64,000 nucleotides of DNA. It comes from Pectobacterium wasabiae CFBP 3304 (GTDB taxonomy: Bacteria; Pseudomonadota; Gammaproteobacteria; Enterobacterales; Enterobacteriaceae). A program made the position numbers and the translations under genes. The DNA is taken from positions 1,488,001 to 1,552,000 of the forward strand of contig NZ_CP015750.1 of NCBI RefSeq assembly GCF_001742185.1, read 5' to 3'. Under the pieces are notes generated by a model. The model searched no databases. It saw nothing but the letters and a program-made list of their open reading frames with translations, and was not told the origin of the DNA. Shown here in pieces: positions 5,320 through 42,845 of this stretch (position 1 is the first letter of the stretch; the number at the start of each line of letters is the position of its first letter).

Positions 5320-5521
5320 ATGGCTAAGGTACATTCAAAGTCAGTTAATAAAACAACCAAAACAGAGCGTTACTACACGGTGGGATACGCTTCGCATAAC
5401 GGCATCAGCGATTAACCTTAAAGGGCACTGGCTGGAAGAGTCAGGCTTTATGGCTGGGATGCCGATAACCGTTACCGTTGAGCGGGGAAGGCTGATTATT
5501 GAGACCAAGATTAATTTCTGA
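5320..5521 (+). pseudogene. symE-like gene, frameshifted (copy 1)
   Basis: From the ATG at 5320 the translation reads MAKVHSKSVNKTTKTERYYT, then VGYASHNGISD and a stop. A second frame continues AINLKGHWLEESGFMAGMPI and TVTVERGRLIIETKINF to the TGA at 5519-5521. INLKGxWLExxGFxxGxPIxVxV is the signature of SymE (AbrB-fold SOS-associated type I toxin) and its relatives. The two halves are out of frame, so the gene is broken. It points toward the 3' end of the immunity gene at 5588-5890. No clear symR antisense promoter was identified. Confidence 0.75.
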
Positions 5522-5932: not shown

Positions 5933-6160
5933 TTATCCAAAGGCTAATACTTCTTGGTGAGCTACTGCTACATTTCGGCTGAATGGAGTTTTCAAATGTT
6001 CCGCAGCCTTTTGAGCGTTTGATACATCTAAAATCTTATCGCTCGGAATTTTAGACAGATCTATCTTAACAATTGGATTTGCTGCTTGGGTTCCACCATG
6101 AGTAGCAAAGTATTCTGCTGTTGATTGACTTCTAAATAGCTTCGCACATTGATGCTTCAC
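5933..6160 (-). pseudogene. Orphan toxin tip fragment, ART-like, with a nonsense codon
   Basis: The fragment reads HQCAKLFRSQSTAEYFATHG, then NPIVKIDLSKIPSDKILDVS and RNVAVAHQEVLAFG followed by TAA. Beyond this codon the frame continues IPSEAIIGFL and a natural stop just before the immunity gene. The expected residue at the TAA in FGxIPSEAI is Lys (AAA), so one substitution created the stop. The pattern VKIDLSKIPSDKILDVS...HQEVLxxGxIP resembles C-termini of ADP-ribosyltransferase-type polymorphic toxins, a recalled and unverified match. The Rhs core that should precede it is absent. Confidence 0.6.
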
Positions 6161-6232
6161 TTCTCATCGTACGAGGCCAAAGCTGACAGGAGATCGCACA
6201 TTTCCAAATGTAGCGCTATTACGCAAAGCTAT

Positions 6233-6305
6233 TTAACCTCTGACGATCCATACGATAAACAGCAGATAAAATAAAGACGGAAGGATCGTTAAGATTTATT
6301 CCGGA
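6233..6305 (+). repeat. symE 3' tail relic (copy 4)
   Basis: The segment starting ACCTCTGACGATCCATACGA, then TAAACAGCAGATAAAATAAA and CGGAAGGATCGTTAAG, matches sequences downstream of the symE-like copies at 5519, 11067 and 13411. The coding part is gone. Like the others it abuts the 3' end of a minus-strand immunity gene (6313). Confidence 0.7.
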
Positions 6306-10774: not shown

Positions 10775-11069
10775 ATGGCTAAGACACATTCTAAGTCAGA
10801 CGTCACCGTTAATAAAGCAACAAAAACAGAGCGTTGGATACGCCCCGCACAAACCTGTTATAACAGGTTTGAACAGCTTTAGCTGGCCCGTAGGGCGAGT
10901 CTCAAAATGAGACGAGTAAAATGGCAGACCCAACCCGCCGTCCGCGATTAACCTTAAAGGTCGCTGGCTCGAAGAGTCAGGGTTTATGGCTGGGATGCCG
11001 ATAACGGTGACGGTGACGGTGACGGTTGAGCGGGGCAGGATAGTGATTGAGACCGAGATTAATCTCTGA
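10775..11069 (+). pseudogene. symE-like gene, interrupted (copy 2)
   Basis: From the ATG at 10775 the translation reads MAKTHSKSDVTVNKATKTER before the frame is lost through a short deletion. It is then interrupted by a hairpin-rich insert (10851-10913). The last part, INLKGRWLEESGFMAGMPIT and VTVTVTVERGRIVIETEINL, is in another frame and ends at the TGA 11067-11069. The GGTGAC hexamer is present three times, giving an in-frame VTVTVTV expansion relative to copy 3. It faces the 3' end of the immunity gene at 11149. Confidence 0.75.
10851..10913 (+). repeat. Four-hairpin element, copy A (inside symE copy 2)
   Basis: Four consecutive inverted repeats: AAACCTGTTATAACAGGTTT (10851-10870), CAGCT-TT-AGCTG (10874-10885), GCCC-GTA-GGGC (10886-10896) and GTCTCA-AAA-TGAGAC (10899-10913). 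The same element occurs at 13206-13269 at the equivalent place in another symE relic. The symE copy at 5320 lacks it. Confidence 0.8.
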
Positions 11070-11148
11070 CGCTGCGCACGATAAATAGCAGATAAAATAA
11101 AGCCGGAAGGATCGTCAGATCTTTTCAACTTTATTCACATTAATGTTT

Positions 11149-11583
11149 TTAACAAGTAACTCTTTGCCACCATTTTTTATTTTCAATATAAACTGATGTA
11201 ACTCCCTTACTCCATTTAGCATATTTTTTTAGAAAAAAAATCATAGCTGCATCAGATTTACCCATAATATCATCAGGTCCCTTCAACTCTAAAAATATAA
11301 AAATATTTATTGAATCAAATAAATGAATAACTTTTAAAAACTCCTCATAAAGTAAGTTACCATCAGAATAAATCAACCCATCCATATAATCATATGTAAT
11401 CTCAACAATATTACTATATTTAGAAGTCATGACACTTTTGATAAAATCGTTAATTATATCATTATCAACCTGCTCGTTACTTTGCAATGCGTAATATATT
11501 TCACTCGCCACCACTTCAATATCATGAGGCAATCGATATCCTTTACTCATCAACCAAATAATATGATTTATTTTATCCGACAT
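11149..11583 (-). CDS. Immunity-type protein paired with the orphan Rhs at 11597-13168
   Basis: A 144-residue protein starting MSDKINHIIWLMSKGYRLPH, with ASEIYYALQSNEQVDNDIIN and FLKVIHLFDSINIFIFLELK. No family is recognised. It begins 13 bp after the stop of the orphan Rhs tip on the same strand and is AT-rich, so it is the probable antitoxin for that tip. A symE relic converges on its 3' end. Confidence 0.62.
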   Translation of the reverse strand: MSDKINHIIWLMSKGYRLPHDIEVVASEIYYALQSNEQVDNDIINDFIKSVMTSKYSNIVEITYDYMDGLIYSDGNLLYEEFLKVIHLFDSINIFIFLELKGPDDIMGKSDAAMIFFLKKYAKWSKGVTSVYIENKKWWQRVTC

Positions 11584-11596
11584 TTAATTACTCTCA

Positions 11597-13168
11597 CTAA
11601 TTAGGTACCGAGAAACCAGGCAATTTCCTCAGATTTTCCCAACTATCAGGAAAGTGAGTCAGTATAGTAGGCGTTTTACCTGTTTGACTAGTTGCTGTAA
11701 ACAAGCCTGTATTAGGATCATAATAACCTACACGAGGTTTATTAGTATATCTATAAGTAAATTCCCTGCCATCTTGGATAGTAGTTCTGGCACTGAAATC
11801 ATATTCCCTCACTGTATTTGCCCCCACTTGATCACCATGTTTTGCATAATGATCTCTTAATCCAGGCCCATCAACTCCCTGCCTAGATTTATTCCATTTT
11901 GCATTTTTCGATACACCACAAAAAAGCCCCAGCGGATCAACCCATCCCAGCGGATTCGGCGCATACTGATAAAGGTTAATCCCCCCCGCCAGCCCTATCG
12001 GGTCCGGTGTCGTGAAGCGGCCTACCGTCGGGTCGTAATAGCGGAACAGGTTGTAGTGTAATCCCGTTTCCTCATCTGCGTATTGTCCGGCATAGCGTAG
12101 CGACTGGGATTCTACCGGCTTGCCGCAACGCAGCCCTTCGCTGTCCTGCGTCTGTCCGGTGACAGCGCCGAAGCTGCCGTAGTCTCCGCTCCAGCGCACC
12201 GCGCCTTCCGCATCCGTCATCTCCAGCGGCGCACCGTTCAGCTCGGTATTGAACCAGCGGATATCGCCGTCACGCGCGCCCGGTTGCTGCGTGATACGCG
12301 CTAACGGCGACCACCAGAGAGTCGGGTCATAAACGTAGCTTTCCGTCCGCTCGGCGTGTCTGACCTGTAGCAGCCGAAAACCTTCCCACAGGAAACGCGT
12401 CTCTTCCTGCGTCCCGTTTTCACCCCGGGTGACCGTTTTATGGGTGCGCCTGCCCAGCGCATCATAGCCATAGCAGGCCACGAACTCACCCTGTGGCCCC
12501 CGACCCCGGGCTTCCACCAGACGGTTGTCCGCATCATACCGGTAAAACTGCTCCGTGGTGCCTTCACGCCGCCGTGTCAGGTTGCCCTGACCGTCATACT
12601 GGTTCCACAGATGACGCCAGTTCAGCAGGCGATTGTCGGACAGCGGGCCAGCAGACGGCGAATGGCCGCTATCCTGTAGATTGTCCGCCGCATCATAGCC
12701 ATATCCCCGATGATGCACCAGCCAGTGCACATCAATCCGTTTCAGCAGCCGACCTTCTGCATCGTAATCATACTGCACGTCACCCCGCAAGCCGTCCCTG
12801 ACTGACGCAAGCTCGCCGGAAGCCGTGTAGCGTAACGCCCGCGAGAGAAGCTGCTGCTCCGGCTCTGCGACATCCCAGAGTCCGCTGCGCTGTGAGGTCA
12901 GGCGACCGAGGCTGTCATACGCCCGTTGCTGCGTGCGGCGGCCCTGAGTACGGCTGATTTCCCGGTGCAACCGGTCACGGGTAAACTCGCTGACCACCTG
13001 ATGATTGAATTTTACCGCGCTGACATGGCCCGAGCCGTAGCGCAACCAGCGCAGCGTGTCGCCATCCGGCAGCGACAGGGCGCTCACGTTGCCCAGTGCA
13101 TCCCGCGTGTAGCCGATATCACCTTCACTGCCGTGTTCGCCTGACTGAGGGGTTAATAAAGCAACCAA
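11597..13168 (-). CDS. 5'-truncated orphan Rhs (core C-terminal part plus toxin tip)
   Basis: The 523-residue ORF carries the last ~400 residues of an Rhs core nearly identical to the main Rhs: GEHGSEGDIGYTRDALGNVS through RYYDPTVGRFTTPDPIGLAG, then NPLGWVDPLGLF, where DPLGL is the self-cleavage motif. A distinct tip of about 107 residues follows: GPGLRDHYAKHGDQVGANTV, REYDFSARTTIQDGREFTYR, GYYDPNTGLFTATSQTGKTP and TILTHFPDSWENLRKLPGFS. The HYxKHG...TxxLTHFP layout suggests a small BECR-type RNase, tentatively. PAAR and the N-terminal core are missing: homology stops at about 13145, where a symE relic begins. It is a silent tip donor rather than an exportable effector. Confidence 0.8.
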   Translation of the reverse strand: MVALLTPQSGEHGSEGDIGYTRDALGNVSALSLPDGDTLRWLRYGSGHVSAVKFNHQVVSEFTRDRLHREISRTQGRRTQQRAYDSLGRLTSQRSGLWDVAEPEQQLLSRALRYTASGELASVRDGLRGDVQYDYDAEGRLLKRIDVHWLVHHRGYGYDAADNLQDSGHSPSAGPLSDNRLLNWRHLWNQYDGQGNLTRRREGTTEQFYRYDADNRLVEARGRGPQGEFVACYGYDALGRRTHKTVTRGENGTQEETRFLWEGFRLLQVRHAERTESYVYDPTLWWSPLARITQQPGARDGDIRWFNTELNGAPLEMTDAEGAVRWSGDYGSFGAVTGQTQDSEGLRCGKPVESQSLRYAGQYADEETGLHYNLFRYYDPTVGRFTTPDPIGLAGGINLYQYAPNPLGWVDPLGLFCGVSKNAKWNKSRQGVDGPGLRDHYAKHGDQVGANTVREYDFSARTTIQDGREFTYRYTNKPRVGYYDPNTGLFTATSQTGKTPTILTHFPDSWENLRKLPGFSVPN

Positions 13169-13413
13169 AACAGAACGTTACTATACCGTGGGATATGCCC
13201 CGCACAAACCTGTTATAAACAGGTTTGAACAGCTTTAGCTGGCCCGCAGGGCGAGTCTCAAAATGAGACGAGTAAAACGGCAGGCCCAACCCGCCGTCCG
13301 CCATCAACCTTAAAGGCCGCTGGCTGGAAGAGTCGGGTTTTATGACCGGGATGCCAATAACGGTGACGGTTGAGCGGGGCAGGTTGGTGATTGAGACCGA
13401 GATTAATCTCTGA
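13153..13413 (+). pseudogene. symE-like relic fused to the truncated rhs core (copy 3)
   Basis: The relic lacks its start and begins VNKATKTERYYTVGYAPHK. It is interrupted by the four-hairpin element and resumes AINLKGRWLEESGFMTGMPI, then TVTVERGRLVIETEINL, with the TGA at 13411-13413. Its left edge is joined to antisense rhs core sequence at 13145-13152, evidence of a deletion that removed both the symE start and the front of the orphan rhs. Confidence 0.75.
13206..13269 (+). repeat. Four-hairpin element, copy B (inside symE copy 3)
   Basis: Inverted repeats are AAACCTGTT-ATA-AACAGGTTT (13206-13226), CAGCT-TT-AGCTG (13230-13241), GCCC-GCA-GGGC (13242-13252) and GTCTCA-AAA-TGAGAC (13255-13269). 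It differs from copy A by one base in the first loop and one in the third loop; the stems are intact. Confidence 0.8.
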
Positions 13414-42600: not shown

Positions 42601-42845
42601 GCGGCATGGACGCCGCGAAAGCCTGTGACGCGCCGGGAGCGCGTCACAGGCGGTTCAGGTAGCGGGCATGAACACCGAAGGTACCGCAAAGCGGCGACAC
42701 CATTTTGCAACGCAAAATGGAACAACGCTTGCGTTGGCCCGCAGGGTGACCCCAGAGGGGGCATAATTCCCCGCGAAAAGCCGGGGGTCACGGGGCGGCG
42801 GCGATTGAGCCGCACCGTGTCGGGCGCATGCGACAATGGTTGCAG
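42601..42845. repeat. Palindrome-rich repeat element (about eight successive hairpins)
   Basis: Successive dyads are GCGGC/GCCGC (42601-42616), a 13-bp stem GCCTGTGACGCGC/GCGCGTCACAGGC (42621-42651), CCATTTTGC-AAC-GCAAAATGG (42700-42720) and CAACGC-TT-GCGTTG (42723-42736). GCCC-GCA-GGGT (42737-42747) follows, then GTGACCCC...GGGGTCAC enclosing GGGG...CCCC, then GCGGC/GCCGC and TGTCG/CGACA. It is GC-rich between AT-rich flanks. The ORFs that cross it are artefacts of the palindromes. Its middle resembles the four-hairpin element in the symE relics. Confidence 0.75.

Follow-up and report, generated by a model that had tools for sequence, protein, structure and literature searches.

The stretch of Pectobacterium wasabiae DNA analysed here (64,000 nucleotides, referred to as the window) contains three symE copies, two of which are interrupted at the same place by a block of four adjacent hairpins, hp1 to hp4. 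A third copy of the block lies outside symE. The features are listed in window coordinates.

5320..5521, + strand: symE copy without the element, also lacking a short stretch just after the insertion site
10775..11069, + strand: symE relic, interrupted by element copy 1
10849..10920, + strand: element copy 1, 72 nt, from folding and model R1; hp1 and hp4 loops without GGA
10850-10871 (hp1), 10874-10885 (hp2), 10886-10896 (hp3, GTA loop) and 10899-10913 (hp4), + strand: hairpins of copy 1
13152..13413, + strand: symE relic, 5'-truncated, interrupted by element copy 2
13204..13276, + strand: element copy 2, 73 nt, from folding and model R1; hp1 and hp4 loops without GGA
13205-13227 (hp1), 13230-13241 (hp2), 13242-13252 (hp3, GCA loop) and 13255-13269 (hp4), + strand: hairpins of copy 2
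42699..42767, + strand: element copy 3, stems diverged, within a hairpin-rich repeat outside symE

RNA folding of the + strand predicted the four adjacent hairpins in copies 1 and 2 (energy z of -4.7 and -5.2, respectively), and none of 200 shuffles of either copy was as stable, confirming the block that an earlier, sequence-only reading had placed at the same position in the two symE relics. That reading had also described perfect stems with differences only in the loops, and the two differences between the copies, one extra A in hp1 and GTA versus GCA in hp3, do lie in loops; the stretch at 42700-42750 that it took to be related is the diverged third copy, and an empty hairpin of the same hairpin-rich repeat was seen by eye at 42620-42652. 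After these three copies, the best remaining match of model R1 in the window had an E value of 0.12; the R1 scores of the three copies themselves follow by construction, as all three are among its seeds. At gathering score no Rfam family, RtT (RF00391) included, matched in the window. Another symE-type copy is present in the P. wasabiae genome at G000:C1:2005373-2005445.

The symE insertion site

The host gene is SymE, as shown by a match of its uninterrupted allele, L103, to PF08845 (E 5e-23). Nearby open reading frames in the window match Rhs repeats, the PAAR motif and phage baseplate hub domains, the last of which we read as probably VgrG-like. In both interrupted copies the reading frame runs into a stop within the element, so the label of relics given to these genes is correct. 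For the same reason, a likeness to the Rickettsia RPE, drawn earlier from the presence of a short palindromic element in coding sequence and not from RPE sequences, fails: the element stops symE in both window copies, whereas an RPE-like insert would keep the protein in frame.

A search of 25 Pectobacterium genomes with 301 bp of the symE region gave matches in 23, P. wasabiae included. In an alignment of 43 rows, comprising 40 loci picked from a longer list of matches and the three window copies, the element was present in 20 and absent in 19, its 3' half alone was found in three, and the left flank was missing in one (L116). The 20 filled rows include the two in the window, one internally deleted, one partial and two whose hp2 contains another, nested repeat. 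The empty site reads mostly CGCA(T/C/A)AA(C/T)GGC, and comparison of the window copies bore out the reported absence of the element from the symE copy at 5320, which has an extra short deletion. Because the aligned filled copies (from genomes G000, G133, G120, G130 and G136) share a single common site and nearly one sequence, one ancestral insertion in symE followed by symE duplication would suffice to explain them. The single site also speaks for the alternative that the block is a feature of symE only, inherited with the gene and immobile, and inheritance with symE does explain the copy number within symE. As an account of the family it is refuted by more than 100 copies elsewhere in the P. 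wasabiae genome and by symE copies that lack the element at that very site, and we give it next to no weight.

A dispersed element family in P. wasabiae

The four-hairpin block is one member of a dispersed family of structured RNA elements of about 70-77 nt, of the RtT or tRNA-linked-repeat kind. The core GGCCCGNAGGGNGA was found 17 times in the P. wasabiae genome and 0 times read backwards, and 382 versus 50 times across 119 genomes of the bacterial family (one per genus); in the flanks of the core matches the other stems differ in sequence with their pairing kept. Model R1 was built from a 16-sequence alignment (nine seeds from the P. wasabiae genome, three of these in the window) in which 94.2% of stem cells are paired, compared with 76.5% in shuffles. 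With the best 150 of 1544 candidates scored, R1 gave at least 123 matches in the P. wasabiae genome at E<=1 and at least 113 at E<=0.001, and a control model from the reversed, non-complemented alignment (R2) gave none. In 176 kb of retrieved loci there were 115 R1 matches at E<=0.001 (including two places counted twice and two antisense overlaps, with L128 and L146 left out) and none with the reversed model; an open reading frame of at least 150 aa was overlapped by 10 of the 115.

The 113 distinct places, a sorting that did not include window copy 1, were classed by motif: an ERIC motif lies within 150 bp in 76, 15 are A-rich copies ending in CATAAA, five belong to the hairpin-rich repeat, two lie within YPAL and two in symE, and no class fits 13. 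Several of the A-rich copies adjoin terminator-like repeats. The YPAL sequence printed in the cited part of PMC2759123 corresponds, compared by eye, to the empty form of the element-bearing YPAL. Three internal sites of Pectobacterium ERICs carry the element, with 27 filled, nine empty and 11 unclassified at site 1, and 10 filled, two empty and five unclassified at site 2. Inserts of about 70 bp at defined places within ERICs are said to have been described in 1997. The element is likened to those ERIC inserts (Sharp 1997; Cromie, Collins and Leach 1997) by location, without sequence comparison.

Insertion is precise, and the sites lie inside other folded or transcribed sequences. Outside the P. 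wasabiae genome, 14 of 175 distinct flanks start with a base other than A; in the remaining 161 the insertion-site A is preceded by G (135), C (25) or A (one). In the P. wasabiae genome the preceding base was G in 41, T in 19, C in three and A in two of 65. At most one base pair of target is duplicated (0-1 bp at symE and tRNA sites). Filled and empty alleles at symE, ERIC and tRNA T-loop sites are as expected of a MITE or other non-autonomous insertion; the terminal inverted repeats and target duplication of a MITE are not matched, as no such repeats were seen by eye and the duplication is 0-1 bp. Together, family identity and insertion are close to certain.

Precise insertion at an A that usually follows G or C, the duplication of no more than 1 bp and the hairpins near both ends would also suit a single-stranded DNA hairpin element moved by an HUH-type enzyme (REP/RAYT or an IS200-type derivative), its stems being kept for recognition during transposition; GNA triloops are moreover very stable in DNA. 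Yet the P. wasabiae genome, despite its more than 100 copies, has no match to the Y1 transposase profile PF01797, which did give control matches in E. coli, and no linked protein was recognised. Mobilisation by a RAYT, as in REP/RAYT systems, was rejected for lack of a Y1 transposase in this genome. A linked autonomous gene was also rejected, as the largest recurring cluster of open reading frames was found at 13 of 120 loci and at varied distances (judged by eye).

Distribution and known relatives

R1 matches were found in 65 of 119 family genomes (E<=1e-4), 123 of 274 class genomes (E<=1e-5) and 63 of 249 phylum genomes, P. wasabiae included in each, with 44 of the last outside the class and most of these from one family (f190). 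Since only the best 17-40 candidates per genome were scored, copy counts from these searches are lower bounds. A pattern with about 25 fixed bases matched at least 120 stretches, against a chance expectation that we estimate at about 0.001. Among the matches listed, 58 were from Enterobacterales, 44 from eight other named orders (Methylococcales 23, Alteromonadales 7, Chromatiales 6, Pseudomonadales, Lysobacterales and Oceanospirillales 2 each, Cellvibrionales 1 and Desulfobulbales 1) and 18 from no named order. Carriage by phages was rejected, as viral contigs gave no exact match to one pattern. Hosts outside symE include mobile DNA: both element copies in Ectothiorhodospira (L234) lie inside group II intron matches, and an IS1182 transposase of Marinobacter (L211) is cut in two by the element, between profile positions 323 and 328.

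In three loci (L252, L297 and L327), which reach the Rfam gathering score, R1 and RtT match the same place. These share all four hairpins and the ACAAA start with the element, the common core being hp2-hp3-hp4, although the Rfam RtT structure line lacks hp3 and hp4; hp1 differs in older RtT loci. An Rfam scan of 10 loci from other genera found RtT in six, within or beside tRNA operons. At 12 tRNA loci, an exact copy of the last 14 nt of the tRNA directly follows the element in eight; L042 has one mismatch, L385 three, and L392 and L312 have no copy within three. Full-length cases read GGTTCG[ACAAA...GAGTA]ATCC...CCA, which places the element in the T-loop of a tRNA 3' arm that has been duplicated (Tyr, Pro, Lys, Arg, Gln and Ser).

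In E. coli, the 5S gene is followed downstream by a second fragment of the 5S 3' end, and the element lies within this fragment, the copy between terminators T1 and T2 scoring 72 bits with R1. A 401-bp query of this E. coli region had matches in 5375 of 5426 E. coli genomes and was at least 80% covered in 1748; many of the lower-coverage matches may be 5S alone, as the query contains part of 5S. According to the part of PMC8144298 drawn on here, the spacer between the rrn terminators T1 and T2 constitutes the sRNAs RrA/B/F, made by T1 read-through, which belong to the tRNA-linked repeats (TLR), first noted in 1978 and numbering 22 in K-12; an 18-19 bp 3' end identical to the upstream tRNA or rRNA end is common to all TLRs, and the double terminator is widely used on plasmids. 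The symE copies, by contrast, have symE on both sides and no such tRNA or rRNA 3'-end repeat. The Aggregatibacter sRNA AaHKsRNA22 (RF02902) has the same four stems and matches end to end, although its score of 35.1 is under the Rfam gathering score of 39.8, and it is probably a member of the family.

Paired stems, GGA loops and CsrA

In two class-wide alignments 97.1% and 97.5% of stem cells are paired (none of 500 shuffles as high), and of the 24 pairs 21 and 22 show double changes; the cells so changed number 503 and 456, compared with 132 and 121 in shuffles. R1 guided the fitting of alignments A2, A3 and A6. For A3, which contains 100 of the at least 120 pattern-matched stretches, the underlying scan also fixed part of hp1 and hp2. 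Thus the proposal of the sequence-only reading, a mobile or spread palindromic element or structured RNA, has been borne out by many unrelated sites, by empty sites at symE, ERICs and tRNAs, and by covarying stems, and the element proved to have a wider range than that reading had assumed.

The linker is near-constant across copies, hp3 is mostly a GCCC-GNA-GGGY hairpin, with mostly GNA loops, and hp4 is extended by Y-GA ... GA/TC-R; a tandem GA motif is described for RtT in the cited part of PMC7657543. Outside the P. wasabiae genome, and leaving out 61 further sites without a perfect hp4, the closing pair of hp4 was C with G in 72 of 73 and C with A in none, and T with A in 41 and T with G in eight of 49. 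Internal stem pairs have G.T and A.C cells at 50:16 and 16:5. This asymmetry and the tolerance of T..G with no C..A are as predicted for RNA of the + strand and count against transposition of a DNA hairpin, although the excess over all stem cells is small (71:53 and 28:22). Selection on the element at the RNA level appears quite probable, and movement by an HUH-type enzyme with DNA-level recognition improbable.

Stems could also be kept perfect without selection, by template-switch correction of quasi-palindromes. Double changes are found even where the host gene is dead: in the symE-borne copies of G120 (L089 and L092), hp1 and hp4 are altered by paired changes on both sides, with an AGGA loop in hp4, and L096 and L097 have an intermediate hp4. 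Template switching would not, however, preserve the GGA and GNA loops, the linker or a tolerance of G.U on one strand, and we regard it as very improbable.

Loops with GGA are concentrated in hp1 and hp4. They were found among distinct sequences from other named orders in 45 and 40 of 46 (hp1 and hp4, respectively; means of loop shuffles 9.6 and 12.6), in MAGs with no named order in 18 and 17 of 19, in the class/phylum sample set, which includes two loci of one order (L388 and L390), in 48 and 52 of 56, and in other genera of the family in 31 and 29 of 39. In named Enterobacterales they fall to 15 and 14 of 57, and in the P. wasabiae genome to 35 and 29 of 107 (shuffle means 17 and 16, maxima 29 and 27); the excess over loop shuffles is large outside these two sets and modest in the P. 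wasabiae genome. GGA is present in the hp2 loop in 0 of 46 sequences of other named orders and five of 56 in the class/phylum set, and in the hp3 loop in six of 46 and five of 56. The motif CA(N)GGAYG, which is close to the CsrA SELEX consensus, occurs in 41 of the 56.

Direct support for a CsrA reading comes from E. coli RrB. The cited part of PMC8144298 reports that Hfq and CsrA bind the spacer RNA, that RrB binds CsrA with an overall KD of about 100 nM, with no shift once three GGA were changed, and that the CsrA phenotypes are modest, deletion and overexpression acting in the same direction. In its hairpin loops with GGA and the CsrA binding reported for RrB, the element resembles sponge RNAs of the CsrB/RsmZ type, from which it differs in having two loop sites instead of many, in being dispersed inside host sequences and in spreading by insertion. 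With phylogeny ignored and several genomes incomplete, csrA was found in 58 of 63 element-bearing and 100 of 186 other genomes of the phylum sample, in 109 of 123 and 126 of 151 of the class sample (p 0.30), and was not seen in five and 14 element-bearing genomes of these samples, respectively. Co-occurrence is strong in the phylum sample and absent in the class sample, so it does not decide the matter, and its absence in the class sample counts against CsrA binding. Linkage to csrA by neighbourhood was rejected as evidence, as tRNA-borne copies in a csrA-tRNA-Ser-tRNA-Arg order may explain it. On balance, ancestral binding of CsrA by the element is slightly more likely than not. As GGA loops are a minority in P. 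wasabiae and the named Enterobacterales, the persistence of the hairpins in these genomes is not accounted for by CsrA binding. Window copies 1 and 2 lack the apical GGA of a CsrA-binding RNA and are therefore probably not CsrA sites; the symE copies are fairly likely to be silent for CsrA, and those in the window are probably passive relics.

The reading that we favour, with a probability of roughly 0.7, is that the block is a non-autonomous RNA element that began as a two-site binding module for CsrA/RsmA, inserted once in a symE ancestor and has lost GGA in the window copies. The element would act as RNA, hp1 and hp4 forming a two-site platform for a CsrA/RsmA dimer, and binding may lower free CsrA or mark the host transcript. 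It would have spread as a non-autonomous insertion, also carried along within ERIC and YPAL repeats and in duplicated genes, and in the lineage of the window one ancestral insertion would have cut the symE reading frame, the broken gene then multiplying with the Rhs-linked symE paralogues. A different function, with incidental CsrA binding, would be a general one in RNA processing or stability, the hairpins being kept as RNase E/III barriers or as spacers that separate stable RNAs. Copies in rRNA and tRNA operons, in ERICs and next to terminators agree with such a role, as do the Pectobacterium hairpins that persist without GGA and the suggestion, in the cited part of PMC8144298, that the repeated 5S end of RrB is a recognition site for RNase E. 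Left unexplained by processing, which we consider rather unlikely as the main role, are the GGA in the hp1 and hp4 loops despite freely changing stems, the near-constant linker, and the location of most copies, a tRNA being found within 400 bp of just six of 120, 10 of 29 and six of 27 loci in three sets.

More broadly, and tentatively, a single mobile RNA element may have spread through much of the Pseudomonadota, entering tRNA and rRNA operons, ERICs, YPAL, group II introns, insertion sequences and protein genes. In most orders it may be a two-site CsrA-binding cassette, its copies together buffering CsrA from many places, on transcripts under growth-rate control. No earlier unification of these pieces was found in the literature covered, outside which lay most subscription papers, including those on ERIC inserts, and one may be in print. 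The finding joins the tRNA-linked repeats, the ERIC inserts, AaHKsRNA22 and the E. coli T1-T2 spacer under one structure, and gives these previously separate pieces one insertion rule and a testable function. The question of the TLRs thereby becomes testable in two respects, the binding of CsrA by GGA loops outside E. coli and the machinery that moves an element for which no transposase was found.

Host repeats, insertion sites and copy types

The hp2 hairpin of the symE-borne element in another Pectobacterium genome (G120; loci L096 and L097) is the insertion site of a second, MITE-like repeat of roughly 100 bp with the form TAAATAGCTTC...GAAGCTATTTA, and a similar repeat lies in the window. 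Copies of the four-hairpin element were themselves located within group II intron matches and a transposase gene. Coordinates of the window repeat and of these element copies, together with a Halomonas copy, are:
6133-6235 of the window, repeat similar to the G120 MITE-like repeat
5540-5778 of L234 (Ectothiorhodospira), element copy within a group II intron match
6828-7066 of L234, element copy within a group II intron match
1900-1974 of L211 (Marinobacter persicus), element splitting an IS1182-family transposase gene
282-356 of L227 (Halomonas), element with a flanking sequence resembling that in L211

Copies of the CATAAAAAA type in P. wasabiae CFBP 3304 are A-rich at the start, end in CATAAA and adjoin a terminator-like inverted repeat; all four examples (L122, L124, L130 and L131) have kept GGA in both the hp1 and hp4 loops.

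Rfam models and taxonomic range

The structure line of the Rfam RtT model (RF00391) does not include the hp3 and hp4 stems found in this analysis, and a revision of the model may be due. As the YPAL-like host repeat at L129 matches Ysr224 (RF02770), with a score below the gathering score, Ysr224 may be a YPAL transcript. Among the exact-pattern matches listed, record titles place two sources outside Pseudomonadota: one MAG labelled 'Halobacteria archaeon' (L221), the other a record of Desulfofustis. These matches may represent mis-binned contigs or transfer.

Elements downstream of csrA

An element follows csrA on the same strand, 0.1-0.9 kb downstream, at three loci (L358, L369 and L385) and on seven genome contigs (G383:C61, G389:C2, G369:C16, G275:C23, G232:C64, G268:C30 and G185:C18). 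The gene order at csrA-adjacent elements, among the loci examined for tRNAs, was csrA, tRNA-Ser, tRNA-Arg, and proximity to csrA may merely reflect tRNA linkage. The csrA-adjacent elements may also have a role in csrA feedback.
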